This document shows, one piece after another, positions 6,401 through 31,246 of a stretch of 32,477 bases of DNA. This stretch comes from Fidelibacterota bacterium. GTDB taxonomy: Bacteria > Fidelibacterota > UBA2242. Location: the NCBI GenBank assembly GCA_016782645.1, contig JADHYC010000025.1, positions 1 through 32,477 of the forward strand, read 5' to 3'. The translations under genes and the position numbers were made by a program. Under the pieces are notes generated by a model. It made no database searches. It worked only from the letters and a program-made list of their open reading frames with translations, and was not told the origin of the DNA. Within the stretch, counting starts at the first letter, position 1, and each line of letters opens with the position of its first letter.

Positions 6401-6997
6401 TCATTGTGACAAGCTGTTAATTGATTCTTGAACTCTTTTCGGATATTTTAATGAATCCTTTTTCAATTTCTGTAAATTTACTTTTTTTATATCAATTGAA
6501 TCTGGTAAAAAGTATATTTTACCAAATGATGAAATGTAAAGAGTATCAAGAAGGCTTTTTTCAGGTGAAGCGATAAAAAGTCCATTATCAAGTTTTTTAT
6601 ATCCATAGAATAGCGAACATTTCAGCTGATGATATTTGACGCTATAGTTTTCAATTTTTATCTTTTTTGTTTTATGTGTAGTTGCAAAATTAATTGTGTA
6701 AGGTATTTGAGAAATTATACCATATTTCGATAATGCAGATTCAAAGGATAGATAGGAAGGGAAGTAGAGTAAATTTGCAATTCTTTCAATTTCACCATAT
6801 TTATCGGGAAGAATGTAAATTCCTGTAGTAAGTCTGATCAATCTGCCTTTTTTAACCAGACGATTTAGAATAACATAAATAGAATTTCTATCATATTTTC
6901 CTTTTCCAGCAAAATTATCACATTGTAAAGTTTTTTCAATATCGCTAATTGTATAGTAAAGTTTATCTAATCCTACAAGCTTATCTATAATATTCAT
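6401..6997 (-). CDS. AbiEi-like antitoxin / winged-helix transcriptional regulator
   Basis: A 198-residue protein with an N-terminal winged-helix region (about residues 1-65: YDRNSIYVILNRLVKKGRL then LTTGIYILPD), the arrangement of AbiEi-type antitoxins of type IV toxin-antitoxin systems. The second half (LSFESALSKYGI, then SPEKSLLDTLYIS) matches the conserved AbiEi C-terminal pattern. In characterised AbiE systems this protein binds DNA and autoregulates while counteracting the nucleotidyltransferase toxin. It follows the toxin gene with a 3-bp gap, so the two are co-transcribed. The order is toxin first, the reverse of the classical abiEi-abiEii arrangement. Confidence 0.75.
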   Translation of the reverse strand: MNIIDKLVGLDKLYYTISDIEKTLQCDNFAGKGKYDRNSIYVILNRLVKKGRLIRLTTGIYILPDKYGEIERIANLLYFPSYLSFESALSKYGIISQIPYTINFATTHKTKKIKIENYSVKYHQLKCSLFYGYKKLDNGLFIASPEKSLLDTLYISSFGKIYFLPDSIDIKKVNLQKLKKDSLKYPKRVQESINSLSQ

Positions 6998-7000
6998 TGA

Positions 7001-7678
7001 TTATCCAATTTCGCTTATAATTTCATCAATTGATTTGTACCAATTTATAGGAAGATATTTTCTTAACACCTGTTTTATGATTATTGGGTCAATTTTAGAT
7101 GAAATTGGACGAGGAATATCAATATCAAATTTCTGGCAAAGAAACCATATATCGAATAGGTCTCTTGGTTCTTTTCTTTCTTTTAATGCCGTCAATTTCT
7201 CGCTTATAATGAACTCAGGGGTAGCTACATTTAAAAGTACCTGAAAAGGAGAAATAGGACTTGAAAGTATTTTTAATGTAAATTGTTCTTGTAAAGTTTC
7301 TCTTTTTGATATTTCTATCTTTAATCGAAAATTTTGTGAAAGATATTCTTGCTCTATAATGAATTCACAAAGAATTGTATTTCGTTTTTCCCATTTATCA
7401 TTAATCTTTATTCCCAATTTGTTTGAAATAATACTCATAGACCTGAAAAGTTGTTCAACGTCAATATTTTTCCGTAATGTAAAATCAAGGTCATCTGAAA
7501 AGCGGGGTGATTTATAGGCAAGTCTAAGAGCCGTACCACCTTTAAAAATAAGATATTGACTCCAAGGTTCTTTTGAAATTTCGTACAGCAACTGTATTTC
7601 ATAATACTCTCTGACTATTCTCTCATAATCAATTCTTAATTCTTTTGAGAGTTTACGGACATCGTTTTCTGTAAGCAT
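7001..7678 (-). CDS. AbiEii-like nucleotidyltransferase toxin
   Basis: A 225-residue member of the AbiEii/AbiGii (COG2253) nucleotidyltransferase family. The signature is present: FKGGTALRLAY followed by SPRFSDDLDFTL, that is GG(T)xLR and the S-x-D-D-x-D-F metal-binding motif of DNA polymerase beta-like enzymes. Further on, LLNVATPEFIISEKLTALKERKEPRDLFDIWFL is the conserved late Lys/Arg-Asp block of the family. Characterised members modify nucleic acids (some modify tRNA 3' ends) and block growth, giving abortive infection. It is first in the two-gene minus-strand operon with the AbiEi-like gene. The pair is bracketed by the inverted-repeat elements at 6249-6316 and 7734-7802, which suggests a horizontally moved module. 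Confidence 0.83.
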   Translation of the reverse strand: MLTENDVRKLSKELRIDYERIVREYYEIQLLYEISKEPWSQYLIFKGGTALRLAYKSPRFSDDLDFTLRKNIDVEQLFRSMSIISNKLGIKINDKWEKRNTILCEFIIEQEYLSQNFRLKIEISKRETLQEQFTLKILSSPISPFQVLLNVATPEFIISEKLTALKERKEPRDLFDIWFLCQKFDIDIPRPISSKIDPIIIKQVLRKYLPINWYKSIDEIISEIG

Positions 7679-7733
7679 TTATTTATTCCTTATATCTTAA
7701 CATAACTGTTAAGAATCTAAGAATAATTTTAAA

Positions 7734-7802
7734 TTAACACAAGACCCTGTAACCGTTTTACCTAAAATAAAGATCAATTCCAGGGACTTGTATCAAGTTA
7801 AT
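7734..7802. repeat. Short inverted-repeat element, copy 3 (69 bp)
   Basis: Left arm 7734-7747 (TTAACACAAGACCC) and right arm 7783-7802 (GGGACTTGTATCAAGTTAAT) are imperfect inverted repeats. The length is nearly identical to the copy at 3071-3140. It occupies the divergent intergenic space between the AbiE-type operon and the DUF4143 ATPase gene. Confidence 0.6.
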
Positions 7803-7911
7803 TGATATCATTTTTACTTTTAAAATATCCTTGTACTATTAAAACAAAAATTATAATGTTACCTTGTGTTTTTAAATGATTTTTAGTGTTATGTTAATTC
7901 ACAGCGGTATT

Positions 7912-9204
7912 ATGGAAAGATTTGTAATAAAAAAATTGAAAGATTGGAAAGATCAAAAACATCGAAAGCCACTAATTCTAAGGGGAACCCGGCAAGTAGG
8001 GAAAACATGGTCTATACTAAATTTAGGAAAAAATCATTTTAATGGTAATGTCCATGTCATTGATTTGGAAAAACATCCGGATTGGCATCGTGTTTTTGAG
8101 CCAAATCTTGATGTAAAAAGAATTTTATCGGAATTTGAGATTCTTCTGAATACAAAAATAGATCCTGAAAGAGATCTTCTCTTTTTTGATGAAATCCAAA
8201 GCTGTTCACGTGCTCTTATGGCTTTGCGCTATTTTTATGAAGAATTACCACAACTTCATATAATTGCAGCCGGATCATTGTTAGGATTTGCTTTTAAAGA
8301 TATTTCATTTCCCGTTAGTAGAGCACAATTTCTAAATTTACATCCTATGAGTTTTGCTGAATTAGGCAAAGACAAATTAGTGGATATTATTTTATCTAAA
8401 CCCATTAAACTATCAGAAATAATCCATAATATGTTGCTTGATGAACTTCGTAAATATTTTTTTATTGGAGGTATGCCCGAATGTGTTCAATACTTTGCGG
8501 AAACTAATAGCATACGTTCGGTTATGGAATTGCAATTAGATTTAATAAATACATTTCGTCAAGATTTTTCAAAATATACTCCATACTCAAATAAGCATTG
8601 TTTAAATCAAGTATTATCTTCTACTGTAAAAAATGTTGGAAAACAACTTAAGTATTCAAGACTTGCTGAAGATTTTACAAATCCAACCATAAAAAAGGCC
8701 TTTATATTACTATGTAAGGCTCAGATTATTCATAAAGTATCTTCTACGAATCCTGGAGGTTTGCCCTTAGGTGCTTCTGCTTCAGAACGTATATTTAAAT
8801 CTATAATGGTTGATATAGGATTGATGCAGTCTATTTGTGGAATTCCTGTTGATATTGAATATAATAAATCAGATTTACTTTCAATTTATCAAGGTGCTTT
8901 AGCAGAGCAGTTTGTCGGACAAGAATTTATGGCTGCCGGTCATTCAGAATTATTTTATTGGTCTCGCAGAGCAAAAAGCAGTACTGCAGAGGTAGATTTC
9001 TTGATTGAAAGTAAAGGTAAAATAATTCCTGTTGAAGTGAAAAGTAGTGTGTCAGGCAGATTGAAAAGTATGCATATATTATTAAGAGAGTACCAGAACT
9101 GTCCGGTTGGATACGTCTTTTCCTGTGCACCTTATTCAAAACTCCCAGGTCAAAGACTAATATTTCTACCTTTGTATTATGCTTTCCAGAAGGGGATGGC
9201 TTAA
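7912..9204 (+). CDS. AAA ATPase of the AAA_14/DUF4143 family
   Basis: From the chosen ATG the product is about 430 residues. It has a Walker A loop (RGTRQVGKTWSI) near the N-terminus, a Walker B (LLFFDEIQSC), an AAGSLLGFA sensor-like segment and a C-terminal DUF4143 region with an EVDFLIESKGKIIPVEVKSS nuclease-like signature (E-V-D-F...E-V-K, PD-(D/E)XK-like). Such proteins are widespread P-loop ATPases of uncertain function, frequent in accessory regions. The frame is open upstream to an ATG at 7876, but the family normally begins with an MxxRF/L-type start, so I prefer 7912; neither start has a convincing ribosome site. The gene stands alone between repeat elements at 7734-7802 and 9244-9261. 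Confidence 0.82.
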   Translation: MERFVIKKLKDWKDQKHRKPLILRGTRQVGKTWSILNLGKNHFNGNVHVIDLEKHPDWHRVFEPNLDVKRILSEFEILLNTKIDPERDLLFFDEIQSCSRALMALRYFYEELPQLHIIAAGSLLGFAFKDISFPVSRAQFLNLHPMSFAELGKDKLVDIILSKPIKLSEIIHNMLLDELRKYFFIGGMPECVQYFAETNSIRSVMELQLDLINTFRQDFSKYTPYSNKHCLNQVLSSTVKNVGKQLKYSRLAEDFTNPTIKKAFILLCKAQIIHKVSSTNPGGLPLGASASERIFKSIMVDIGLMQSICGIPVDIEYNKSDLLSIYQGALAEQFVGQEFMAAGHSELFYWSRRAKSSTAEVDFLIESKGKIIPVEVKSSVSGRLKSMHILLREYQNCPVGYVFSCAPYSKLPGQRLIFLPLYYAFQKGMA

Positions 9205-9243
9205 TAGCTGTATAGGTTTTATTTTTAGGTAGAATGATCGGTA

Positions 9244-9261
9244 GGAATTGTATCAAGTTAA
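9244..9261 (+). repeat. Single arm of the short inverted-repeat family
   Basis: GGAATTGTATCAAGTTAA matches the right arm of the 7734-7802 element at all but two positions. It lies 40 bp after the stop codon of the DUF4143 ATPase. I see no good left arm at the expected distance, so it may be a solo or decayed copy. Confidence 0.5.
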
Positions 9262-9366
9262 AGAAATCTGGTATTGTAGGAAATGCTATGAAAAAAAGGG
9301 AGGTAATTCACTATAATATTTTCTTGATTTTCATGTTACAAACATGTATACTGCAAATGTGAAAAT

Positions 9367-9401
9367 CCAATTTAAAATTGGCGAATAAACGGAAAATTTC
9401 C
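9367..9401. promoter_or_regulatory. Paired palindromes upstream of the helicase/R-M operon
   Basis: CCAATTTAAAATTGG (9367-9381) is a perfect 7+1+7 palindrome, and GGAAAATTTCC (9391-9401) is a second palindrome 9 bp later. Both lie about 75-105 bp upstream of the first ATG of the four-gene operon, in a 230-bp AT-rich leader. They are candidate operator sites. No regulator gene of the operon is visible, and AT-rich palindromes can arise by chance. Confidence 0.3.
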
Positions 9402-9472
9402 TATATATAGAAAATGGTAGAATACTTAATTTGAAAAACAGTGCTTACTGATAATTATTATAATAAAACAAC

Positions 9473-12241
9473 ATGATAAATCAGAACATAATAAATGATT
9501 TGAAGAATAAACCTGATTTAACACAGGAAAATCTTCAAATCATCGCCTGTGCCGGTTCTGGAAAAACTGATTTCATTTCTCACCGGATTGCCTATATTGT
9601 AGCAGAAGAAATAGCAGAACCTGAAAATATTGTAGCCTTTACATTTACGGAGAAGGCTGCTGAAGAATTAAAATTTAGAATACGAAGTAGGATTAGAGAC
9701 TTAATAGGTCATCAACCGGATATTGGTGATATCTATGTCGGAACAATTCACAGTTTCTGTTATGAATTATTAAAAGAGTTCGTCCCTGAATATAGAGCCT
9801 TTGATGTACTGGATGAGGGCAAACGTTTTTCATTTTTAAGTTCGATTCGTAACGATCTTGGATTGCGTGATCTTGAAGATTTTTTGGTATCAATCGGAAT
9901 GAGAAAACCTTATGGCACAACCAAGCAGGCTTGGATTATCAATACTTTTATTCGAGGTATTGATATTGTTCGGGAAGAAATGCTTAATTCCGAAGATGTA
10001 TCAAATTCGGAAGCATTTGTAAACGCTTATAATTTGTATAACCAGAGACTAAACGAAAGACGGTTTTTGGATTTCAGCAGCATGATGGCTCTTGCAGTAG
10101 GATTTTTGGATAAGGATAAAAATATTCTTTCAGAAGTTCGAAAACGATTTACCTATATCACAGTTGATGAATACCAGGATGTAAACCTGATACAGGAAAG
10201 ACTGGTAAACCTGATGGCAGGAAAGAAAAATAATATATGTGTGGTTGGTGACGACGACCAATCTATTTATCAATGGCGGGGTTCTACTGTAGATAATATT
10301 ATCAACTTCAAGAAGCGGTATCCAAAAGTATTTACACACCATTTACATACCAACTTCCGTTCTGCAGATGGAATAATAAATCTTTCAAACGAAATGATTA
10401 AAAACAATGATCCAAACCGGCTAAAAAAATCAATGAAGTCTTCAAGTAAAAAATCACAGCATGGTGATATTTATAATATTGAATTTCAAGAGCAGGATGA
10501 AGAAATACAATTTATCATTGAGCGAATCCAAAAATTGATCGGCACTGAATGGACCAACAAAGATGGCTCAAAACGCGGTTTGGCATATTCCGACATTGCC
10601 ATTTTATTCCGCTCAGTAAAATATGGAGCACGACCTTATTTGGATGCATTAGAAAAAGCTAAAATCCCCTATGCCGTTACTAATATCGGTGGTCTATTTG
10701 AAGCCTCAGAAGTGGATACTATCTTTAGCATTTTTTCTTATCTTGGCGATTTCGGGAAAATATGGGACTGGCAATCAGGAACCGGATTTGTGCCAGACGA
10801 GAATTCCATTTATTTATCCGCAAAATCAACTTTTTCATTATCAAATAAAAGAGCATTTAAAAAGCATTTTCAGGAATTGAAAGAATCCATTTCCGGGCGT
10901 ATTTCCTTGCAAGGAACCTATGGTAAAATTCTGGCAATCCTTGGTGTTGGAATGTATGATATTCACGACGATAAAAACGAAGTGGCGCTATACAATCTGG
11001 GGAGGTTAAGCCAGGCAATTTCCGATTACGAAGGCACACGTACTTATTGTACCCCTCGTGATATTAAACGCTTCTGCTGGTTCATCAGAAACTATGCGCA
11101 GAACGCCTATGACGCGGGATCTGGAGATGACAGAACTCTTTCTATTAACGCTGTGCAGGTAATGACCCTTCACGGAACAAAGGGATTAGGATTCCCGGTG
11201 GTGTTTATGCCTTACAGCGTGGATAAACCTTTCCGGCAGACACATCCCGGTTTTTTAGATGCAAGCAAATTTAATTTTGTTCGTTATCAGGGAAGCGTTG
11301 AAGACGAGAGGCGTTTATTCTATGTAGGAGTGACCCGTGCAAAAAAATATCTCTATATTACGTCCTGCATAGATCCCGGCCCACATAAAAGGAAGAAAAA
11401 ACCCAGCCAATTTTTGAAAGAATTAAACAAGAATTACTTTATAGATAAGCCAATAGAAGACCCCATAAAAAGGAAGAAACTAAAACCACAGCTATCAAAC
11501 GAAGATTACCGCTTCCCCACCAATTATTCTGAAATGAGTGATTATTTGCGTTGTGAATACGATTACAAAATGCGCTACATTTATGGTTTTAATCCAATCC
11601 TTGTACAGGCTCTGGGATACGGGAAGCAAGTGCATAACATATTGAATATCTTACATAAAGTTGCCCAAGAAACAGGCAAAGTGCCCACCGATGAAGAAGC
11701 TGCTGAAATATTAAAAGAACAATTCTACCTCCGTTATGCGGCGGAAAGCCAGCAGGATACATTAAAGCGCAGCGCTATGCGAAGTGTATTGAGATATATT
11801 GGAATGTGGCGTGAAGATTTTACACTTTCCGTGAATACGGAGCGTAATTTTGAAATGGATATGGACAATGCGCTTATTTCCGGCAGTATTGACCTGATTA
11901 AAAGAGAAAATTCCGATGAAAGTATTCTGGAAGTGGTGGATTTTAAAACCGGCAACGAAAAACGAATGGATGACGAGCTTATCCTGCAGGTGCAACTTTA
12001 TACTATTGCTGCCCGGGAAGCGCTCAACCTTCAAGTTAACAAAGCATACGTGCACTTTTTAGATGCTAAAAAACAGGCACGTATTGAAGTGTTGACCACT
12101 CCCAAGCAGTTGGAATTGGCGAGCAGAACCATATCGGATACAATAACAGGTATTACGACCAGGCGGTTCAGGCGGAATCCGAAAAATAATAAAGTATGTA
12201 GCAGATGCGATTGGAGTAAATTTTGCCCTCAGAAGCAATGA
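9473..12241 (+). CDS. UvrD/PcrA-like SF1 helicase fused to a Fe-S PD-(D/E)XK nuclease
   Basis: A 922-residue fusion. Helicase motifs occur in order: I (ACAGSGKT, Lys31), II (TVDEYQDVN), III (GDDDQSIYQWRGS), IV (HTNFRSADGI), V (MTLHGTKGLGFPVV) and VI (RRLFYVGVTRAKK). The C-terminal third is a nuclease of the AddB/Cas4 type: D807 in GSIDLI, D823-F-K825 in VVDFKTG, a following QVQLY motif, and four cysteines placed as in Fe-S nucleases (C694, then C909, C912 and C918 at the end). This is the layout of AddA/AddB-type DNA end-processing enzymes. It is the first gene of an operon; its TGA overlaps the next ATG (ATGA). Its partnership with RadC, Mod and Res suggests it processes DNA ends made by the restriction complex (inference). 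No strong ribosome site precedes the start. Confidence 0.9.
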   Translation: MINQNIINDLKNKPDLTQENLQIIACAGSGKTDFISHRIAYIVAEEIAEPENIVAFTFTEKAAEELKFRIRSRIRDLIGHQPDIGDIYVGTIHSFCYELLKEFVPEYRAFDVLDEGKRFSFLSSIRNDLGLRDLEDFLVSIGMRKPYGTTKQAWIINTFIRGIDIVREEMLNSEDVSNSEAFVNAYNLYNQRLNERRFLDFSSMMALAVGFLDKDKNILSEVRKRFTYITVDEYQDVNLIQERLVNLMAGKKNNICVVGDDDQSIYQWRGSTVDNIINFKKRYPKVFTHHLHTNFRSADGIINLSNEMIKNNDPNRLKKSMKSSSKKSQHGDIYNIEFQEQDEEIQFIIERIQKLIGTEWTNKDGSKRGLAYSDIAILFRSVKYGARPYLDALEKAKIPYAVTNIGGLFEASEVDTIFSIFSYLGDFGKIWDWQSGTGFVPDENSIYLSAKSTFSLSNKRAFKKHFQELKESISGRISLQGTYGKILAILGVGMYDIHDDKNEVALYNLGRLSQAISDYEGTRTYCTPRDIKRFCWFIRNYAQNAYDAGSGDDRTLSINAVQVMTLHGTKGLGFPVVFMPYSVDKPFRQTHPGFLDASKFNFVRYQGSVEDERRLFYVGVTRAKKYLYITSCIDPGPHKRKKKPSQFLKELNKNYFIDKPIEDPIKRKKLKPQLSNEDYRFPTNYSEMSDYLRCEYDYKMRYIYGFNPILVQALGYGKQVHNILNILHKVAQETGKVPTDEEAAEILKEQFYLRYAAESQQDTLKRSAMRSVLRYIGMWREDFTLSVNTERNFEMDMDNALISGSIDLIKRENSDESILEVVDFKTGNEKRMDDELILQVQLYTIAAREALNLQVNKAYVHFLDAKKQARIEVLTTPKQLELASRTISDTITGITTRRFRRNPKNNKVCSRCDWSKFCPQKQ

Positions 12242-12921
12242 AAAAGAAACTGCACAGCGGTCATCATAAACGACTTAGGGAAAGGTTTACTAAATCAGGT
12301 CTTGGAGGTTTCCACGATTATGAAGTTTTAGAATTATTATTGACTTATGTATTCCCGAATAGGGATACAAAACCTATTGCCAAAGAACTATTGGATAAGT
12401 TTAAAACACTCACTGGAGTATTCAGTGCTGAAAAAGAGGAACTAGAAGAAATAAAGTGGATTGGTGAACGAACAGCTATATATTTAAAACTGATGAATGA
12501 TACACTTGGTTTTGTGTTTGAAGAGCGAGCCCGAAATGAGGAAATCCAGTTCACCAAAACTGCACAATTGTTTGAATATTTTAAAGCCACAATAGGAAGC
12601 AAGAAAAATGAAGTGATGAGGGCTGTGTATCTGAATAGCCAGAACAAAATCATCCATGCGGAGAATCTAAGCGAAGGCACCGTGGTGGAAGCTGTCGCTT
12701 TCCCGCGAAAGATTGTGGAAGTTGCTTTGAAATACCACGCCATTAGTGTGATTATCGCTCATAACCATCCTGGCGGCGTATCGGAACCCTCTGATAATGA
12801 TGATAAGATTACAGAACAGATTAAAAATGCGCTGGAAACAGTAGGAATAAGTTTGCAGGACCATTTGGTAATTACAGAGAATGATTATTTTAGTTATCGG
12901 CAAACCGGATATTTAGAATAG
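12238..12921 (+). CDS. radC: RadC-family JAMM/JAB-domain protein
   Basis: A RadC-like protein of about 227 residues. The N-terminal half is helix-hairpin-helix-like (LELLLTYVFPNRDTKPIAKE, then EEIKWIGERTAIYLKL). The C-terminal half is the JAMM metal-binding domain with H175-N-H177-PGG and SEPSDND, the H-x-H...S...D set of RadC. RadC is often annotated as a DNA repair protein, although its biochemical role is unsettled, and copies are common in mobile and defence loci. A TTG at 12223 in the same frame is possible. The ATG at 12238 is preferred because it forms an ATGA overlap with the helicase stop, typical of translational coupling. The gap to the next gene is 8 bp. Confidence 0.85.
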   Translation: MKKKLHSGHHKRLRERFTKSGLGGFHDYEVLELLLTYVFPNRDTKPIAKELLDKFKTLTGVFSAEKEELEEIKWIGERTAIYLKLMNDTLGFVFEERARNEEIQFTKTAQLFEYFKATIGSKKNEVMRAVYLNSQNKIIHAENLSEGTVVEAVAFPRKIVEVALKYHAISVIIAHNHPGGVSEPSDNDDKITEQIKNALETVGISLQDHLVITENDYFSYRQTGYLE

Positions 12922-12929
12922 GAGACATC

Positions 12930-14744
12930 ATGTCAGAAGAAAAATTTAAAGACCTGCCCACCGGACTTTACTGGAAAGGCAAAAAGACCGAAGTGGACCG
13001 GGTGGTTTTGCCCTTTCAGACCATTGAAACCATAAACGAAAGCCGGGCAACACGGGAGCGTGAGAAAGTTAAAGGAAAGGATTTATTTAAAAATGAAAAT
13101 GGCGGCAACTGGCATAACCGCCTGATCTGGGGCGACAATAAATACATTATGGCGTCGCTCTTAGAAGAGTTTGCAGGAAAGATTGATCTCATCTATATCG
13201 ACCCGCCCTTTGCCACCGGCGCAGATTTCAGTGTGAAGATGACATTGGGTGATGCTGAGTGGACGAAGGAACCATCGGCCATTGAAGATAAAGCATATCG
13301 AGATACGTGGGGGCAGGGGTTGGATAGTTATTTGCAGATGATGTATGAACGTTTGGTAATTATGAGGGAATTGTTATCAGAGAAGGGCGCTATATATGTT
13401 CATTTGGATTGGCACGTAGGACATTATGTGAAGGTATTTTTGGATGAAATCTTTGGTATTAAATACTTTAGAAACGAAATCATTTGGTGTTATACAGGTC
13501 CGTCGAACCAAAAAAGTGATTTTCCAGACAAACACGATGTAATTTATCGATATTCAAAAAGTGATAAACCCATTTTTAACATTGATGATATACGTATACC
13601 CTATGATGAAAAAACAATGGCAAATTACAAAAAGGGCTTAATGGGTTCAGGGACATTATACAGCGGTGAAATAAAATCTGATAAAGGGATATTAGATAAA
13701 AAAGGGAAAATTCCTGAAGATTGGTGGATCATGGCAGCATCCAGTAGATATCCAATAGATGGTGTCAAAAGAACAGGGTATGCAACCGAAAAACCTTGGC
13801 CTTTAATTGAAAGAATCATCAAAGCCTCCTCCAACGAAGGAGATTTAGTCGCCGACTTTTTCTGCGGTTCTGGCACCACCGGCGCTGTGGCGGAAAAGTT
13901 GGGCCGGCGGTGGGTCATGGCAGACCTGGGCAGGTATGCTATCCACACCACCCGCAAGCGTCTTTTGGGCATAGACAACTGCAAACCCTTTGTTGTTCAG
14001 AACCTGGGCAAATATGAAAGGCAATATTGGCAAGGTGTTACTTTTAAAAAGCGTAGTGATGAGCAGATGCCTATCTACGAATATATCCGGTTCATTCTCA
14101 AACTCTACAATGCCGAACCCCTGACAGGCATGTTGCACATTCACGGAAAGAAAGGAAAACATTTTGTTCATGTGGGGGCTGTGGTTGCACCGGTTACGCT
14201 TACTGAAATAAAAGAGGCAATGGATGAGGTAAAACAGGCCGGTCAGAAGGCGCTGGATATCCTGGGCTGGGAATGGGAGATGGGCTTGCATGATGTGGTG
14301 GAAAAAACCGCAAAAGAAAGCGGCATCCATCTTCGCCTGCTTTCCATTCCAAGAGATGTTATGGACACCAGAGCATCAGAAAAAGGAGATGTTACATTTT
14401 ATGAGTTGGCCTATCTGGAAGTTGAAGTAACGCAAACAAAATCGCGCGCTTTCAAGGTAAAATTGAAAGACTTTGCCATTCCAAATCTTGATTTAATCCC
14501 GCAGGGGGTGCGGGATAAGATAAAGAAATGGTCGGATTATATTGACTATTGGTCTGTTGACTGGGACTGGCACGAGGACACCTTTCACAATATGTGGCAG
14601 TCCTACCGCACCCGCAAGGAGCGAAAATTAGAATTAACATCTGATGCGCATAAATATGAAAATAGCGGTAATCATAAACTCATGGTTAAAGTAATTGATA
14701 TCTTTGGTAATGATACCACCCATGTCATTGAGGTAAAATCATAA
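12930..14744 (+). CDS. Type III-like site-specific DNA methyltransferase (Mod), beta class
   Basis: A 604-residue adenine-type methyltransferase. The catalytic motif IV D91-PPF comes first, and the AdoMet-binding motif I (ADFFCGSGTT, around residue 310) comes later, the permuted beta-class order shared by type III Mod subunits. The conserved TGYATEKPWPLIERIIKASSNEGDLV run before motif I is typical. The segment between about residues 160 and 285 should hold the target recognition domain; the recognised site cannot be read from sequence. Well-placed GGAGAC precedes the ATG. It shares an operon with Res, which begins at the base after its stop codon. No homopolymer or tetranucleotide tract suggesting phase variation is seen in the coding region. 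Confidence 0.9.
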   Translation: MSEEKFKDLPTGLYWKGKKTEVDRVVLPFQTIETINESRATREREKVKGKDLFKNENGGNWHNRLIWGDNKYIMASLLEEFAGKIDLIYIDPPFATGADFSVKMTLGDAEWTKEPSAIEDKAYRDTWGQGLDSYLQMMYERLVIMRELLSEKGAIYVHLDWHVGHYVKVFLDEIFGIKYFRNEIIWCYTGPSNQKSDFPDKHDVIYRYSKSDKPIFNIDDIRIPYDEKTMANYKKGLMGSGTLYSGEIKSDKGILDKKGKIPEDWWIMAASSRYPIDGVKRTGYATEKPWPLIERIIKASSNEGDLVADFFCGSGTTGAVAEKLGRRWVMADLGRYAIHTTRKRLLGIDNCKPFVVQNLGKYERQYWQGVTFKKRSDEQMPIYEYIRFILKLYNAEPLTGMLHIHGKKGKHFVHVGAVVAPVTLTEIKEAMDEVKQAGQKALDILGWEWEMGLHDVVEKTAKESGIHLRLLSIPRDVMDTRASEKGDVTFYELAYLEVEVTQTKSRAFKVKLKDFAIPNLDLIPQGVRDKIKKWSDYIDYWSVDWDWHEDTFHNMWQSYRTRKERKLELTSDAHKYENSGNHKLMVKVIDIFGNDTTHVIEVKS

Positions 14745-17561
14745 ATGGCACGCAAACGCAAAGCAAAACGAACTAAAAAGGAGGCCATTATCCACCTGGA
14801 TCAACGGCTTCCCGAGGTGACTGGAAGAGATCCGTATTCCATTCCGGTGAAACATTTGTTACCTGATAAGAAAGGCGGGTACATCGAAAAGGATGAACGT
14901 CGTCCCAGTAAGACCCTGCTGGTAAATCAGATCCGCAAAGAGGTTGATAAATGGCGGGGAAACGGTTATGAACATCCGCGAGGGATTTCTGATACTTCCA
15001 GGCGGCTGATGGAATGGTGGTTTGATGAAACCCATTTCTTCCCAGATGGAGAATCCTTCAAATATTATTTCGCCCAGCGGGAAGCCATTGAGACCATCAT
15101 TTACCTGTTTGAAGTCGCCAAGAAGCAGGAGGCAGCTGATCTCATTTTTAAATACATGGACCCAAAGGCGTATAAGGATGATTTATTCACTACCCGCAAA
15201 AAAATAGAAGAAACAACCCGTCAAAAACGAATGCTCAGCAGAGTTGTGCCTGAAACAGGGCTTATTGCCCATCAGGAAATTCCTGCGCCGGATCATTATC
15301 GTTATGCAATTAAGATGGCAACCGGTTCGGGCAAGACGCTGGTCATGGCAATGGTAGTTGTCTGGTCATATTTTCATAAAAAATTTGAAACGGATTCGAA
15401 GTTAAGTAAGTCGTTTCTGATTATTGCGCCAAATATCATCGTCTTTGAACACTTAAAGGATGATTTTGAAAGTGGTAGAGTCTTTCAAGATTGGGACTTA
15501 ATCCCGAATGAGTGGAAACACGACTGGCAGATGACATATATCTTGCGAGGTGAAAGCAGGAAGACCTCTACAGAGGGTACGCTCTATCTTACAAATATTC
15601 ATCAATTGTATGAACCAAGAAATAATAATTTTATAGATGATCCTGTAAATCGACTTCTTGGATTAAAACCAAAAGAAGCTACTGGCTCATGGGAAGAGGA
15701 TTTGTTAGACAGGATTAAAGCTCATGACGATTTGCTTATAATTAATGATGAAGCACATCATGTTCATGATGAAGATCTGGAATGGATGCATGTTATTTTA
15801 CGTTTGTATAATTACCTGAAAGAAAAGGGCAGCAAAGGATTATCTCTTCAATTAGATTTTACCGCCACACCTAAGGATCAAAATGGCACCTTTTTCCCTT
15901 GGATAATTTGTGATTATCCGTTAGCGCAAGCCATTGAAGATCGCATTGTCAAAGCGCCGTTGATTGTTCACCAGTCAGATAAAGCCGATCCTGAGAAATA
16001 TGACAGTGCCTACGTTGCATACTCGGAATGGATCAGCATCGCCATTTCCCGCTGGAAAGATCATTATGATGCTTATGGGAAAGTCAGAAAGAAACCCGTT
16101 CTCTTCATCATGGCTGAAAATACTCGGGATGCTGATGATATTTATGAATCATTGAAATTGAAAGCAGAATTTAAAGGAGACGGTCGACTTCTTTTAATTC
16201 ATACGGATAAAAAGGGTAAAATTCAGAAGCGAGACCTGGAAAAAGCCAGAGAAGCGGCGCGCTCAATTGACAAGCCAGCGAACAAAATAAGAGCCATAGT
16301 CAGTGTTATGATGTTGCGGGAAGGCTGGGATGTGCGTGGTGTGTCTATTATATTAGGTTTAAGACCATTTTCTGCAAAAGCTAATATTCTTCCGGAGCAG
16401 GCAGTTGGTCGCGGTCTTCGATTGATGAAAGAAATAGGTCCTGAATATATTCAGATCGTAGAGATAATTGGTACCCAAAAATTCGAAGAATTTATAAAGA
16501 AACTTGAAGTTGAAGGTGTAGGCGTTGGCTATACACGTCAAACTCCGGATTTGGGTCCATTCATTTTCCCCCACAAGATGAAATCAGAATATGATATTGA
16601 AATCCCGTTATTAACTCCATCTTACACTCGCCAAGTAAACGATCTGGATGCTTCTTTTATATATGATTTGCCTCCTAATCCAAGAGGATTGAAAGTAACT
16701 GAAGAAGTAATTAACAAGGTAGAATTGGTTGAAACTGTGACTCAAAAAACAGTTGCCCAGAAAAAGGTAACTATTGATGAAGCGGTGCCGGAGATCAATG
16801 AGATTATTTCCAATTTAACCAATCGTGTTTGTAAAGAAGCAAGGATAGATGGACACTTTGCTACTGTATATCCATTATTAAGTAGATATTTGAAACAAGT
16901 GTTTTTTGGTCAAGAAGTAGATTTAAACAATAATAAAATCAGAAGACTTTTAACAGACTCACGGAATACGGCAGAAATTATTAAAACTCTAGCAAAAGCG
17001 ATCGGTGATAAATGTATTATAAAAATTACAGTAACAATGAAAAGCGAACCTTTACGATTATCAGAATTAGACGGCTTTTACTGGAAGCGGATGTGGGTTG
17101 AATTGGATAAAACCATTTTTAACATTACACCGTGCTTTAATGATTTTGAGAAACATTTTGCACAGTTTTTGGACCAGGCAAAGGATATTACCAAATTTGC
17201 AAAACTTGCAGAAACCTATACAAAGTTTTCAATTGAATATATCAATCATAAAGGCGCTATTGCATACTACTATCCTGATTTTATAGCAGAACAAGAAACA
17301 GAAAATTGCAAAACAATGTGGTTAATTGAAACAAAAGGTTGGGAACAGGCGGATGTCTCTCTAAAAGATGCCAGGGCTGAAAAATGGTGCGAAGATGCTA
17401 CAAAATTAACTGGTATCGAGTGGTGTTATTTGAAAGTTCAATATAAGCCATATATGGGTATTACTAAAAATTTATCTTTGATTCCCTCTGGATTGTTTTC
17501 AAAGTTTTTGGAAATTCTTAAAAAGGTATTGATTGATAATCAAATTAAACTGAAGGTTTAA
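14745..17561 (+). CDS. Type III-like restriction subunit (Res): SF2 helicase with PD-(D/E)XK nuclease
   Basis: A 938-residue protein. Helicase motif I is ATGSGKT (residues 192-198), motif II D335-E-A-H338 in INDEAHH, motif III LDFTATP, and motif VI around EQAVGRGLRLM. The C-terminus has the type III endonuclease core: D845 in YYPDF and E862-T-K864-G, that is PD-x(16)-ExK. It should form a complex with the preceding Mod and cut DNA after ATP-dependent translocation or diffusion. The N-terminal 150 residues include a Lys/Arg-rich start and a region found in Res homologues. Its ATG directly follows the Mod stop (TAAATG), so translation is probably coupled. It is the last gene of the operon; a repeat arm lies 37 bp downstream. 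Confidence 0.9.
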   Translation: MARKRKAKRTKKEAIIHLDQRLPEVTGRDPYSIPVKHLLPDKKGGYIEKDERRPSKTLLVNQIRKEVDKWRGNGYEHPRGISDTSRRLMEWWFDETHFFPDGESFKYYFAQREAIETIIYLFEVAKKQEAADLIFKYMDPKAYKDDLFTTRKKIEETTRQKRMLSRVVPETGLIAHQEIPAPDHYRYAIKMATGSGKTLVMAMVVVWSYFHKKFETDSKLSKSFLIIAPNIIVFEHLKDDFESGRVFQDWDLIPNEWKHDWQMTYILRGESRKTSTEGTLYLTNIHQLYEPRNNNFIDDPVNRLLGLKPKEATGSWEEDLLDRIKAHDDLLIINDEAHHVHDEDLEWMHVILRLYNYLKEKGSKGLSLQLDFTATPKDQNGTFFPWIICDYPLAQAIEDRIVKAPLIVHQSDKADPEKYDSAYVAYSEWISIAISRWKDHYDAYGKVRKKPVLFIMAENTRDADDIYESLKLKAEFKGDGRLLLIHTDKKGKIQKRDLEKAREAARSIDKPANKIRAIVSVMMLREGWDVRGVSIILGLRPFSAKANILPEQAVGRGLRLMKEIGPEYIQIVEIIGTQKFEEFIKKLEVEGVGVGYTRQTPDLGPFIFPHKMKSEYDIEIPLLTPSYTRQVNDLDASFIYDLPPNPRGLKVTEEVINKVELVETVTQKTVAQKKVTIDEAVPEINEIISNLTNRVCKEARIDGHFATVYPLLSRYLKQVFFGQEVDLNNNKIRRLLTDSRNTAEIIKTLAKAIGDKCIIKITVTMKSEPLRLSELDGFYWKRMWVELDKTIFNITPCFNDFEKHFAQFLDQAKDITKFAKLAETYTKFSIEYINHKGAIAYYYPDFIAEQETENCKTMWLIETKGWEQADVSLKDARAEKWCEDATKLTGIEWCYLKVQYKPYMGITKNLSLIPSGLFSKFLEILKKVLIDNQIKLKV

Positions 17562-19999: not shown

Positions 20000-20485
20000 A
20001 TGATTAATAAAACTGATGAATACTGGATGACTTTTGCTTTAAAAGAAGCGGAAAAATCAATGGAAAAAGGGGAAATGCCCGTAGGTGCCATTATACTGCA
20101 TAGTAATAAAATAGTAGGGAAGGGGTATAACCTTCGAGAAACCTTGAAGGATCCTACTGCTCACGCAGAAATATTAGCGATAACCTCTGCGGCTGCTTCA
20201 TTAAATTCCTGGAGATTAGAAGATTGTACGTTGTATGTAACGCTTGAACCCTGTCCTATGTGTGCAGGCGCAATTCTTAATGCGCGTATTCCCAGAGTTG
20301 TTTTTGGTTCCTACGATAAAGCAGCTGGAATGTGTGGCTCGGTTGAAAATCTGTGTGACCAGAATCTTTTAAATCATAGAGCATTGGTAAAAGGCGGTGT
20401 GATGGAAGAGCAATGCAAATCCTTGATAGAGGCTTTTTTCCAATCGATGAGAAAAAGTAATAGCAACATTGAAAATACGTCATAA
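20000..20485 (+). CDS. tadA: tRNA adenosine(34) deaminase
   Basis: A 161-residue cytidine-deaminase-fold enzyme that converts A34 to inosine in tRNA-Arg(ACG). The zinc site is complete: H55-A-E57 with the proton-shuttling Glu, and P-C85-P-M-C88-A-G. Length and the MPVGAII opening match TadA. Its substrate gene, tRNA-Arg(ACG), is in the same window at 31173-31246, which supports the assignment. tRNA-Ser(CGA) follows 26 bp after the stop and may be co-transcribed. Confidence 0.93.
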   Translation: MINKTDEYWMTFALKEAEKSMEKGEMPVGAIILHSNKIVGKGYNLRETLKDPTAHAEILAITSAAASLNSWRLEDCTLYVTLEPCPMCAGAILNARIPRVVFGSYDKAAGMCGSVENLCDQNLLNHRALVKGGVMEEQCKSLIEAFFQSMRKSNSNIENTS

Positions 20486-20511: not shown

Positions 20512-20603
20512 GGAGAGGTGGCAGAGTGGTTGAATGCGGCGGCCTCGAAAGTCGTTTTCCGGCAACCGCCGGGACGGGGGTTCAAATCCCTCCCTCTCCG
20601 CCA
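20512..20603 (+). tRNA. tRNA-Ser (anticodon CGA)
   Basis: A class II tRNA with a 7-bp acceptor stem (GGAGAGG with CCTCTCC), a long variable arm and a GGTTCAAATCC T-loop. The anticodon loop CTCGAAA gives CGA at 20546-20548. The 3' CCA is encoded (20601-20603). A partial copy of its 3' end recurs at 21089-21104, on the far side of the GIY-YIG gene. Confidence 0.95.
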
Positions 20604-20639
20604 CTCTACACTGCGTTACGAGTAGCAAGCTAATCTTCA

Positions 20640-20730
20640 CTTCGTTATTTATTTATCGCCTGCCTGTCGTAACGATCTACCTGTCGTAGCGACAGTGTAG
20701 ACAGGTAGTACAGACAGGTAATTTATGTAG
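20640..20730 (+). repeat. Left 91-bp direct repeat flanking the GIY-YIG gene
   Basis: This 91-bp segment aligns without gaps to 21185-21275, and most positions are identical. Together with the tRNA 3'-end repeat (20586-20625 versus 21089-21128) it places direct repeats on both sides of the GIY-YIG gene. The segment contains nested palindromes: CTGTCG-TAG-CGACAG and the outer ACCTGTC...GACAGGT (20679-20706). Confidence 0.85.
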
Positions 20731-20811
20731 ATAGGCGAATGGCAGACAAATCTACTTCTTGCAATTTGTGCGTCGTAATGGAATAAAACTCACAGAAAGC
20801 GACAATTAACT

Positions 20812-21051
20812 ATGTGGGTTGTGTATATTATTAAATCTGAGGAAGGATTAATTTATATAGGAATCACTAAAAATCTTGAAAAAAGACTTCAAGAACACAA
20901 TTCTGGTCATAGTTATTATACTAAACGAGGTAGTAATTGGAAGATAATTTATACAGAAAGTTATGATAGCTCTAACGAAGTAAGAAAACGTGAAAAATAT
21001 TTTAAGAATAATGCAAGTAAGGAGTGGTTAAGAAGAAGGGGAATATTATAG
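20812..21051 (+). CDS. Small GIY-YIG nuclease-domain protein
   Basis: A 79-residue single-domain protein of the GIY-YIG superfamily (UvrC/YhbQ-like). The signature reads VVYIIKSEEGLIYIGITKNL, where VYII and YIGIT are the two motif halves. Then come R25 in KRLQEHN, the H-N-x-G stretch and a final RKREKYFK helix with the expected Glu. Standalone proteins of this size are common in Bacteroidetes-like and uncultured genomes, often beside RNA genes; their function is unknown. It lies 208 bp after tRNA-Ser and is flanked on both sides by direct repeats including a copy of the tRNA 3' end. That suggests a small mobile or homing-like unit (inference). No strong ribosome site is visible. Confidence 0.87.
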   Translation: MWVVYIIKSEEGLIYIGITKNLEKRLQEHNSGHSYYTKRGSNWKIIYTESYDSSNEVRKREKYFKNNASKEWLRRRGIL

Positions 21052-21065
21052 GCAGTTCGACTTGT

Positions 21066-21088
21066 CTTTCGTAACGTAGTGTAGAAAG
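21066..21088. repeat. Small hairpin of the TCGTARCG...GTGTAGA family
   Basis: CTTTCGTAACG-TAGTGTAGAAAG has complementary ends CTTTC/GAAAG around a core related to the flanking repeats (TCGTAGCG...GTGTAGA). It lies between the GIY-YIG stop codon and the duplicated tRNA 3' end. Confidence 0.5.
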
Positions 21089-21128
21089 ATCCCTCCCTCT
21101 CCGCTACTCTACACTACGTTATGATGAA
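21089..21128 (+). repeat. Duplicated tRNA-Ser 3' end plus downstream flank
   Basis: Positions 21089-21104 (ATCCCTCCCTCTCCGC) repeat the 3' end of tRNA-Ser at 20586-20601, and similarity continues through CTACTCTACACTACGTTATGA (compare 20602-20622). The encoded CCA is altered to CTA. It looks like a target duplication or att-like remnant on the far side of the GIY-YIG gene. Confidence 0.75.
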
Positions 21129-21184
21129 CAAGCCAATTTTCGTCCTGAAATGCATCGGAATTACGAATGACATGCCAATCTACG

Positions 21185-21275
21185 CTTCGCTATTTATCTA
21201 CTGCCTGCCTGTTGTAACGATCTACCTGTCGTAGCGACAGTGTAGACAGGCAGTACAAACAGGTAGTTTATGTAG
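21185..21275 (+). repeat. Right 91-bp direct repeat flanking the GIY-YIG gene
   Basis: Gap-free partner of 20640-20730. It carries the same CCTGTC...GACAGG hairpin (21225-21250). Weaker similarity runs on to about 21295, up to the end of the permease gene. Confidence 0.85.
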
Positions 21276-21291
21276 CGACTGGTAAGCAAAT

Positions 21292-23163
21292 TTACTCTTT
21301 TTCACGTCGTCTTGTTGCAAGAAGTATAATATCACGCAATTGCTCGATATTTTTTGCATGCAACCAGTCTTTGTCAAAATCCGCACCATGTGCTACTTGC
21401 GCAATTGCAGAAAGTGCACGCAGATGGAAGTTTCTTTCATCACGGGAGCCGACCAATACAAAAACAGCATAAACAGGCGGCATACTTTCAATAAAATTAA
21501 TACCTGCTTCACATCTTGCAATAAGCAAATCGAATTTATTCTCCCCATCAATAGTTATATGTGGAATCGCTAATCCCGGTCGTATTGTTGTTGTTGACTC
21601 TTTCTCACGCTCAATAAAAGAATCAAACAATTCTCTGGGATCAATATCCAATCTATTTGCAATTTTGTCTGCAATAATTGTGAAAAAATCCTTAAGTGAA
21701 GTTTGTTTACCTATATCAATTATCTCACATTTTTTCACCAATTTATCAAACCTGTCCTCGATTATCTTATCACGCTCCCTTAAAATCTCGCCTAATTCTG
21801 CATGTAACGAATCACCGGCAATATCTTTAGCAGTAACACGCTCAACTATATGTATCAGAGCAGATTTTGATTTTGCCCTCCCACGAATATAAATTCTATG
21901 CCATAATAGGCATAAAATAACGAATCCTATCGTTGTAAAAAGTGCAACACTTCCCATTTTATAAATAAAAAAACCATAACTGATAATCCCAATTATTTGT
22001 ATCCATGGATATAAGGGTGAAATAAAAGTAGGTTTATAATTTAAAATCTTACTTTCACGCATAATAACACAAGCAAGTAATACGAAAACAAACAATAAGA
22101 TCTTCATAGTAGAGGCAACTTTTACAAGTTTTTCAAGGTCCAGAAAGAGAATAACCACTATCATAAAAATCCCGGTAAATATTATGGAATAGTGTGGGGT
22201 ATTGAATCGCTTATTTACTTTTGCAAAAAATCCCGGTAAAAACTGATCTCTACTCATTGCCACAGGAAAGCGTGATGCAGATAAGATACCGGCATTGGCA
22301 GTAGAGATAAACGCAAATATGGCAGCAAATGCCATAATTACGCCGCCAATTGAGCCAAAAATTTTAGTTCCGCCAATTGATACAGGAATAAATGAACCCG
22401 CAAATTCGTGTCTATCAAGCAAACCGACTGTAATAAAAATTGTCGATCCATAAAGAGCCAGTACAACACAAAATGCTAATATCATCCCAAATGGTATATT
22501 CCTGGTTGGATTCTTGACTTCTTCAGCAATACTTGAAATCTTCGTCAGTCCTCCAAATGATATAAAAACCATACCAACTGCGGCAAATACTGCACTTCGA
22601 TCAGATATCATAAATGGGATATAACGGTGAACATTGAGCGACATCACTCCTCGAAAAATATACAATAGCAGCAAAGCGATAAGAATGAATACAAGGAAAA
22701 CCTGAACTTTACCTGTGATTTTAACACTTACCACATTAAGAATTGTAAAAAACACACAGAGCCCAACAGCAATGAGTTTTATCTGCATCTCAGTAATACC
22801 TGGGTTAATCAAGGTTATAAATATACTAATACCAACTAAAGCAAATGCACTTTTTAAACTGAGTGAAAACCAGCTTGCGAATCCACCTATAGTACCCGCA
22901 ACTGAACCCATACTACGTTCAATAAAAAAGTAACTCCCTCCTGCTTTAGGCATTGCGGTAGTCAGTTCCGCTTTAGAAAACAGGGCAGGAAGAATAAATA
23001 TCCCTGCCAGAATATAGACCAGGATAACCGCAGGACCGACTTTGGCATAGATTATTCCTGGTAAGACAAACAAACCGGAACTGATCATTGCCCCAGCAGC
23101 AATACAGAAAACATCTGTACAACTCAGCTGGCGGATTAATTTCTCAGGGTGATTACCATGCAT
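21292..23163 (-). CDS. APC-family amino acid permease fused to a PTS EIIA-like domain
   Basis: A 623-residue fusion. Residues about 1-430 are an APC-superfamily permease with roughly twelve hydrophobic segments: the opening SCTDVFCIAAGAMISSGLFVLPG carries the unwound TM1 Gly-rich motif, followed by PKAGGSYFFIERSMGS. After a charged linker, residues about 475-620 resemble PTS EIIA type 2 domains (mannitol/fructose or nitrogen PTS): GLAIPH has the phosphoacceptor-like His535, and H580 in FHLRALSAIAQ is the second conserved His. The permease may therefore be regulated by phosphorylation or PII/EIIA-like sensing (inference). No EI or HPr gene is in the window. A decayed copy of its N-terminus lies at 30120-30414. 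The start is the ATG at 23163; the ribosome site is weak. Confidence 0.87.
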   Translation of the reverse strand: MHGNHPEKLIRQLSCTDVFCIAAGAMISSGLFVLPGIIYAKVGPAVILVYILAGIFILPALFSKAELTTAMPKAGGSYFFIERSMGSVAGTIGGFASWFSLSLKSAFALVGISIFITLINPGITEMQIKLIAVGLCVFFTILNVVSVKITGKVQVFLVFILIALLLLYIFRGVMSLNVHRYIPFMISDRSAVFAAVGMVFISFGGLTKISSIAEEVKNPTRNIPFGMILAFCVVLALYGSTIFITVGLLDRHEFAGSFIPVSIGGTKIFGSIGGVIMAFAAIFAFISTANAGILSASRFPVAMSRDQFLPGFFAKVNKRFNTPHYSIIFTGIFMIVVILFLDLEKLVKVASTMKILLFVFVLLACVIMRESKILNYKPTFISPLYPWIQIIGIISYGFFIYKMGSVALFTTIGFVILCLLWHRIYIRGRAKSKSALIHIVERVTAKDIAGDSLHAELGEILRERDKIIEDRFDKLVKKCEIIDIGKQTSLKDFFTIIADKIANRLDIDPRELFDSFIEREKESTTTIRPGLAIPHITIDGENKFDLLIARCEAGINFIESMPPVYAVFVLVGSRDERNFHLRALSAIAQVAHGADFDKDWLHAKNIEQLRDIILLATRRREKE

Positions 23164-27584: not shown

Positions 27585-27674
27585 ATTTTTATGAACAAAT
27601 ATTTTTTATTGAATAAACTCGATGTTAACTATAAATTCCGGTAGCTTTTTAAAATAATAATCATAGAGTGTAGC

Positions 27675-27689
27675 CCCGATTTTATCGGG
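27675..27689. repeat. Short perfect hairpin CCCGAT-TTT-ATCGGG
   Basis: A 6-bp stem with a 3-nt loop inside GTGTAGCCCCGAT...ATCGGGATCGCAGG, 54 bp before tRNA-Pro. The flanking GTGTAG echoes the small hairpins near tRNA-Ser and tRNA-Arg. No T-run follows, so it is not a standard terminator. Confidence 0.4.
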
Positions 27690-27742
27690 ATCGCAGGTCC
27701 ATTGTTAATACGATTGAAAAAAAAAGTTCTTTAAGAAATTTA

Positions 27743-27817
27743 CGGGGTGTAGCGCAGTCTGGTTAGCGCGCTGCGTTCGGGACGCAGAGGTCGGGAGTTC
27801 AAATCTCCCCACCCCGA
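27743..27817 (+). tRNA. tRNA-Pro (anticodon CGG)
   Basis: Acceptor stem CGGGGTG/CACCCCG, D-arm AGCGCAGTCTGGTTAGCGCG, anticodon stem CTGCG/CGCAG with loop TTCGGGA (CGG at 27778-27780), T-loop AGTTCAAATCT. CCA is not encoded. It marks the left edge of the accessory region. Confidence 0.96.
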
Positions 27818-27845
27818 CAAAAAAGAACAAGTTTGATTAATTAGT

Positions 27846-30849: not shown

Positions 30850-31024
30850 TAAATCCTTTTAACAATACTTAACCTTCTGATCAATAATCAGATGTTATAT
30901 CCAAGTAGAAAAAGGAAGATTAATAAAACCAGTTTCAGCCTGAGTATAGCGAGGTCTAAATGGGTTTTAATTAAAACTGTGGTAAATTATATCAGGGAGG
31001 ATTCACTCGTATAGTGAATGGAAT

Positions 31025-31147
31025 AAGTGCTTACACATTGTAACATAGATATTCAAATATGTGTCATTCTACAAAGTGAAAAAGTGCTTGCACATTGTAA
31101 CATAGATATTCTAATACGTATCATTATACAAAGTGAATAAGTGCTTG
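31025..31147 (+). repeat. Tandem repeat with a 57-bp period
   Basis: AAGTGCTT recurs at 31025, 31082 and 31139, exactly 57 bp apart. The first two units share the rest of the sequence with few changes (TACACATTGTAACATAGATATTC and TGCACATTGTAACATAGATATTC types). The third unit breaks off after the first bases into the hairpin at 31148-31172. Confidence 0.8.
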
Positions 31148-31172
31148 CACATCGTAGCGAAGCGTAGATGTG
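31148..31172. repeat. Small hairpin of the TCGTARCG...GTAGA family beside tRNA-Arg
   Basis: CACATCGTAGCGAAGC followed by GTAGATGTG: the ends CACATC/GATGTG are complementary and the interior matches the hairpins near tRNA-Ser (TCGTAGCGACAGTGTAGA). It abuts the 3' end of tRNA-Arg directly. Confidence 0.55.
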
Positions 31173-31246
31173 TACGCCCAGGAGGATTCGAACCCCCAAC
31201 CTTCTGGTCCGTAGCCAGACGCTCTATCCAATTGAGCCATGGGCGC
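31173..31246 (-). tRNA. tRNA-Arg (anticodon ACG)
   Basis: Read on the minus strand: acceptor arm GCGCCCA with TGGGCGT, D-arm GCTCAATTGGATAGAGC, anticodon stem TCTGG/CCAGA with loop CTACGGA (ACG), T-loop GGTTCGAATCC. CCA is not encoded. Its A34 is the substrate of TadA, encoded in this window. It forms the right edge of the accessory region. Confidence 0.95.

Follow-up and report, generated by a model that had tools for sequence, protein, structure and literature searches.

A one-domain GIY-YIG gene beside bacterial tRNA genes as a candidate minimal homing-like element

We analysed a stretch of 32,477 nucleotides from a Fidelibacterota bacterium (GenBank assembly GCA_016782645.1, contig JADHYC010000025.1, positions 1 to 32,477 of the forward strand; hereafter, the window), in which a gene for a GIY-YIG protein of 79 residues lies behind an intact tRNA-Ser(CGA) and between two copies of a repeat that starts with the 3' end of this tRNA. 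The features of the locus are given below; loci, genomes and contigs carry the codes L###, G### and C##, respectively, and G000 is the window's genome.

20512..20603, plus strand: intact tRNA-Ser(CGA), found by ARAGORN and Rfam RF00005; host and presumed target gene
20586..20800, plus strand: direct repeat copy 1, the tRNA 3' end from T-loop nucleotide 59 with some 200 bp of flank rich in palindromes
20660..20708, unstranded: inner palindromes of repeat copy 1, CTGCCTGTC..GACAGGTAG
20812..21051, plus strand: open reading frame (ORF) of the GIY-YIG endonuclease, 79 amino acids, PF01541 (E 2.8e-17)
21054..21060, plus strand: AGTTCGA, remnant of the T-loop 5' half in a second tRNA copy, from reading of the sequence; clade members L049, L095 and L153 are alike
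21061..21088, plus strand: 28-nt hairpin-forming insert that splits the T-loop of the second tRNA copy, with equivalents at other loci
21089..21106, plus strand: displaced copy of the tRNA 3' end, ATCCCTCCCTCTCCGCTA, from sequence comparison
21089..21296, plus strand: direct repeat copy 2, tRNA 3' end and flank
21199..21255, unstranded: inner palindrome of repeat copy 2, TACTGCCTGCCT..AGACAGGCAGTA, matching copy 1
20000..20485, plus strand: tadA, conserved upstream neighbour, context outside the element, used in the empty-site and divergence comparisons
21292-23163, opposite strand: amino-acid permease with an EIIA domain

A sequence-only reading of this locus had reported that the tRNA-Ser 3' end with its flank, and a block of 91 bp, recur beyond the GIY-YIG gene. 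Both recurrences were confirmed: 53 bp of tRNA 3' end and flank (20586-20638) return at 21089-21141 with 85% identity, and the 91-bp block extends to 115 bp (20616-20730 and 21161-21275, 87%), the two being halves of a single repeat of about 210 bp (20586-20800 and 21089-21296) split by an indel. The repetition of the tRNA end is real, but the second end is not the plain duplicate that had been described; it is a copy whose T-loop is interrupted by a hairpin, so that AGTTCGA (21054-21060) is followed by the 28-nt insert (21061-21088) and by ATCCCTCCCTCTCCGC from 21089, the loop being broken between A58 and N59. Positions 21061-21085 of the insert are 84% complementary to 21108-21132, which places the displaced tRNA end within the loop of a larger palindrome. 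No Rfam intron reached the gathering score in the window or at the other loci of its genome, and the ORF stands free between the tRNA and the displaced copy. No other gene-like ORF was found within the unit, so there is no tyrosine or serine recombinase there. Repeats spread over the genome without the gene, which the earlier reading had named as grounds for giving it up, were not what we found, the repeat being local: the 2.56 Mb assembly holds a single other significant match (C71, L010), adjoining an apparent decayed tRNA-Arg. A coincidence with a dispersed repeat was rejected because this sole other match borders a tRNA relic.

The protein belongs to the GIY-YIG superfamily by its PF01541 match, its conserved Tyr, Tyr, Arg, His and Glu positions and its fold, which AlphaFold2 predicted confidently as a single GIY-YIG domain (mean pLDDT 93.7). 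In an alignment of 26 homologues Y5, Y15, G17, H29, E61 and K65 are invariant and R25 nearly so. Its closest solved relatives, by profile and fold, are the UPF0213 single-domain GIY-YIG proteins (1zg2, 1ywl) and SLX1, and the window protein matched no NCBIfam subfamily at the cut-off. The gene has evolved under purifying selection, with omega between 0.09 and 0.44 across pairs with measurable dS and a dN/dS of about 0.38 between the window gene and the G030 copy.

Comparison between genomes, nearly all of them metagenome assemblies whose contigs are broken by repeats, provided the neighbourhood and orientation of the gene, its displaced tRNA copies and hairpins, its presence and absence at given sites, one lateral transfer and its specialisation by isotype. 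In the window's own assembly, all five other small GIY-YIG genes lie directly behind a tRNA gene and on the same strand, the hosts being tRNA-Met(CAT), Glu(CTC) (with two tandem genes), Pro(CGG) and Ser(TGA); since the reported contamination of this assembly is 4.69%, the count of six copies may be at least one too high. Contig C44 (L257), with tRNA-Arg(ACG), Gly(GCC) and Pro(CGG) and their neighbours, duplicates part of the window in the same tRNA order and is 86.5% identical to G066 where compared, and it probably contaminates the assembly.

A sequence-only search of GTDB genomes gave 45 loci from Fidelibacterota (Neomarinimicrobiota), Bacteroidota, Ignavibacteria, Patescibacteria, Elusimicrobia, Firestonebacteria and Zixibacteria, the majority with a same-strand tRNA close by and the majority with direct repeats flanking the gene. 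Within the phylum the gene is present in 98 of 149 sampled genomes, at 1-12 copies each. The survey set comprised 192 gene copies and 158 homologous loci (Fidelibacterota, Bacteroidota, Patescibacteria and others); the loci whose flanks were read came from lists ordered by protein score and are non-random, tRNA content never being a criterion. A tRNA gene lies within 800 bp of 145 of the 192 copies, on the same strand in 145 of 145, and within 100 bp of 104, with 24 isotypes represented within 400 bp. At eight loci without a tRNA (L188, L189, L139, L148, L150, L165, L183 and L203) the gene follows a tmRNA on the same strand, and at L188 and L189 the end of the tmRNA T-arm recurs behind the GIY-YIG gene. 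The remaining loci are mostly contig ends, neighbours of decayed tRNAs or sites within protein genes. Homologues next to RNA genes with like repeats, proposed earlier as a check, were accordingly found, and the opposite case of homologues lacking both repeats and RNA neighbours did not hold.

The part-copies of the tRNA follow two layouts. In type A an intact tRNA is followed by the gene and by a part-copy of the tRNA 3' side; type B is its mirror image, with a part-copy of the tRNA 5' side, then the gene and then the intact tRNA. The placement of the element at a tRNA 3' end, suggested from the window, holds here, but among homologues the element is found on either side of the tRNA. A part-copy of the same tRNA was detected across the gene, at an alignment score threshold of 12, in 102 of 142 gene-tRNA pairs compared with 4 of 59 control windows around the tRNAs of the window genome (one of the 4 being itself a GIY-YIG locus), which excludes chance. 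Inserts of at least 8 nt are present in 81 of the 102 part-copies, and 57 of 87 distinct inserts, a count that varies with the alignment, are located in the T (34), D (13) or anticodon (10) loop against 29.9 expected (binomial p 3e-9). Their mean folding energy is -11.8 kcal/mol, versus -3.1 for random stretches. The type A joint is most often GGTTC^RA. With the inserts set aside, identity between part-copy and tRNA often reaches 97-100% (L149 and L053 are examples), so long decay alone does not account for the inserts; the near-identity could alternatively be due to gene conversion. The hairpin motif CCTGCCTG..CAGGCAGG occurs in 17 of the 149 genomes, all 17 of them gene carriers (Fisher p 7e-4, genomes treated as independent), and the motif of the element's flank in 6 of 149, again all carriers. 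The ORF frequently starts 0-10 nt behind the tRNA, and at L191 the start codon comes immediately after it, suggesting release by tRNA 3' processing.

Alleles without the insert and with several tandem units, the other comparison that had been proposed, were both recovered, together with gene-less scars. At the tadA-tRNA-Ser(CGA) site of the window's family, the element is missing from G066, while G030 has a gene of the window's lineage, G021 has one of a different lineage (39% identical) and G034 retains a gene-less scar, not an empty site. G030 and G066, which belong to one genus, are 94.3% identical across 1588 bp and diverge exactly at the tRNA 3' end. In another neighbourhood, tRNA-Ser(CGA) has gene-less scars in G050 and stands without the gene in G010, G058 and G054. 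One genus of the phylum shows all three states at tRNA-Arg(CCG), the element being absent from G029, G053, G020 and G084, present in G041 and G080, and reduced to gene-less remnants in G057, G069, G088 and G037. Tandem expansion is seen at L172, with four identical genes at 692-bp spacing.

Evidence for movement between genomes comes from the window genome and G030, which belongs to another genus. Their nuclease genes are 89.5% identical in nucleotides (third positions 87%, dS 0.24), while the adjacent tadA genes are 68% identical (third positions 40%), and the median third-position identity over 7756 cross-genus pairs is 36%. The far greater similarity of the nuclease gene than of adjacent tadA points to lateral transfer into the same tRNA. 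The similar stretch, at about 20721-21122, is bounded on both sides and takes in non-coding DNA. The protein tree, built on 75 columns and with many forks open, tracks the target isotype, with 60 isotype changes compared with 109 +/- 2.5 under shuffled labels, and 38 compared with 79 within the phylum.

Members of the same GIY-YIG family also occur as the sole gene of inserts of 274-308 bp inside conserved stretches of protein genes (L105, L114, L140, L144 and L207). These inserts end in terminal inverted repeats of 12-14 bp, (A)CCCNGTGAAATA..TATTTCACNGGG(T), and at L207 the two parts of the gene join up exactly once the insert is left out. The interrupted genes, named from their translated flanks and not by family search, are two four-helix-bundle genes (one of them interrupted again further along), a HepT-like, an integrase-like and an epimerase-like gene. 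Two further candidates, L089 and L193, gave no clear repeat pair. Separately, at L152 (G092:C91:1599-1820) a GIY-YIG domain flanked by CCTGCCTGCGCCGC and GCGGCAGGCAGG lies in frame within a 1071-aa open frame resembling a DNA methylase or restriction enzyme.

We consider it likely that the unit is a minimal, intron-less, free-standing homing-like element, made of a single one-domain GIY-YIG endonuclease with a tRNA gene as its target; the label of minimal homing-like element had been proposed for the window, and the comparative evidence supports it. Nuclease activity, cut site, repair route and movement are what we infer from these comparisons, as follows. The nuclease would cut an uninvaded tRNA gene in a conserved arm: the T-arm where the gene lies behind the tRNA, the D-arm or anticodon arm where it lies in front. 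Repair of the break would copy in the nuclease gene together with its own tRNA end, and the tRNA would be kept whole in this way, while the native end would be displaced to the far side, where it would persist as a pseudo-copy and then come to bear hairpins in its loops. Each lineage would be adapted to a tRNA isotype and, on passing to another genome, would enter that same tRNA, spreading into empty alleles as the one lateral transfer suggests, and loss of the gene would leave tRNA-end scars.

Several observations weigh against this proposal. The displaced copy is broken by hairpins whereas the T-loop of the intact tRNA survives. If the target were nothing more than the T-loop, the invaded allele would be cut as well, and how it avoids self-cutting is unexplained. 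On its left the displaced copy has an edge that ranges from the D-arm to the T-arm, which leaves a single insertion point unproven. The native flank beyond the displaced copy could not be matched at the empty site of G066, where no homology was found and the contig is too short. In G030 the repeat is shared by the ends of two contigs, one with the tRNA and the other with the gene, so that the adjacency of the two is deduced. Finally, a single clean transfer between genera came to light. The other candidate, at tRNA-Pro(CGG) between L005 and L141, looks like contamination and was rejected, as its similarity extends beyond the nuclease gene to the gene next to it (86.5% over 1.2 kb) and C44, which repeats the tRNA order of the window, is probably a contaminating contig.

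A bolder form of the proposal, which we regard as possible but doubtful, is that the protein of about 79 residues alone mobilises DNA, recognising folded tRNA-like arms over long sequence and inserting or attracting palindromes at hairpin loops, with a second form, the unit of about 290 bp with 12-14-bp terminal inverted repeats, entering protein genes. Such a bare mobiliser would rank among the smallest autonomous mobile elements.

Among the alternatives, the one that survives best, although we think it unlikely, is that the GIY-YIG protein mobilises palindromic hairpins, by a logic like that of REP/RAYT but with a nuclease of another kind, acting on the loops of folded DNA hairpins and having hairpins inserted at them, tRNA genes being struck because of their folding arms. 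The excess of inserts in tRNA loops, the near-identity of many tRNA copies outside the inserts, the confinement of both hairpin motifs to gene carriers and the presence of the structure-specific SLX1 among the protein's relatives would all be expected if this were so. However, several palindromes lie distant from any tRNA or nuclease gene, and inserts would be intolerable in intact tRNAs, so survivorship alone favours degenerate copies; moreover, the loop count depends on the alignment, and the Fisher test takes genomes as independent.

Less probable still is that tRNA ends are duplicated passively in tandem and that the nearby nuclease gene is kept for a host function related to tRNA, such as tRNA processing. 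Tandem copies of tRNA ends without the gene do occur (L235, L216 and the tRNA-Gln of L003), and the short distance between tRNA and ORF looks like that of a gene co-transcribed with the tRNA and freed by its processing. A housekeeping role is nevertheless ill matched by the patchy presence of the gene (0-12 copies per genome), by the many unrelated isotypes and the tmRNA, by lateral transfer and by family members within protein genes. Tyrosine-recombinase islands are classically marked by direct repeats of a tRNA 3' end, yet the idea that the unit is what is left of an integrase-type island in a tRNA att site, stripped of all but a passenger gene, is very improbable and was rejected, as the unit holds no recombinase, the same single gene recurs at the loci examined, insertions on the 5' side and hairpin inserts speak against it, and passengers of unrelated islands would not follow the target isotype in their phylogeny.

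Some further sites were observed alongside these. L003 (1623-1815) has the end of a tRNA-Gln twice in tandem, with a TCCCGATAAATCGGGA hairpin in the T-loop and no nuclease gene in between. In the window, repeated palindromic units (CTACGCTTCGCTACGATGTGCAAGCAC and variants; 31020-31171, minus strand) lie behind tRNA-Arg(ACG) at 31172-31246 and resemble the element's flank without a nuclease gene, and a short tRNA-Pro-like 5' fragment with the hairpin GTGTAGCCCCGATTTTATCGGG (27666-27700) precedes tRNA-Pro(CGG) at 27743-27818; each is a possible scar. The window also holds a defence-like cluster (6401-17561) with an AbiEi/AbiEii-type pair, a DUF4143 ATPase, a UvrD helicase-PD-(D/E)XK nuclease, an N6/N4 DNA methylase and a type III restriction helicase.

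If the homing-like reading is right, tRNA and tmRNA genes in several bacterial phyla host a minimal class of selfish gene of their own, a widespread and apparently undescribed parasite that would live off tRNA genes and avoid harm by leaving the tRNA whole. This would account for the tandem tRNA fragments and hairpin-ridden tRNA pseudogenes of carrier genomes, and would caution annotators that some predicted tRNAs are displaced copies. It would also offer a very small nuclease for tests of structure-specific cutting and, as the hairpins may mark cut sites, a mechanism that can be tested directly.

With regard to known systems, REP/RAYT and Rickettsia palindromic elements are dispersed hairpins, some of them within reading frames; those of the RAYT systems go with a small nuclease gene, RAYTs being HUH enzymes. 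The present family does not belong with REP/RAYT, as its enzyme is GIY-YIG and not HUH and its link to hairpins is correlative. SLX1 differs from the window protein as a structure-specific nuclease with a longer chain, and a literature search found no description of tRNA-linked mobility for UPF0213. A full-text search, weak evidence given that preprints and most subscription papers lay outside its coverage, likewise found no description of the bacterial family.

Two precedents come nearest. The free-standing GIY-YIG homing endonucleases of T-even phages (the Seg enzymes, SegB and others) are significantly co-localised with tRNA genes of many isotypes and tied to amplification of tRNA-gene segments, with no intron or intein (PMC13096335). 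The likeness to the window family lies in a free-standing GIY-YIG enzyme associated with tRNA genes of many isotypes. SegB, compared here by its description, is phage-borne, in contrast to a chromosomal family with one domain of about 79 residues, and the part of the account consulted does not describe for SegB the tRNA-strand orientation, the displaced tRNA end or the hairpin inserts (PMC13096335). We do not place the window family within SegB, since its copies lie on chromosomal contigs and 50,697 phage records yielded only 11 weak matches to the protein, the family being nearly absent there. The second parallel is with the mobile ORFs of fungal mitochondria, known from atp6 of Allomyces and atp6, atp9, cox2 and nad3 of Glomus, where an endonuclease ORF enters a gene together with the end of the donor gene, so that the gene stays whole and its native end is displaced downstream; the atp9 case is GIY-YIG and most others are LAGLIDADG (PMC3630166). 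The same anatomy of a whole host gene beside the ORF, with a second copy of the gene end beyond it, is found here. Those ORFs target mitochondrial protein genes, whereas here the hosts are bacterial tRNA and tmRNA genes with insertion on either side. The present family, if our reading holds, would link phage SegB with the fungal ORFs that exchange gene ends, and it is because its anatomy resembles the latter and its choice of tRNA genes resembles the former that we read it as a probable minimal homing-like element targeting tRNA genes.

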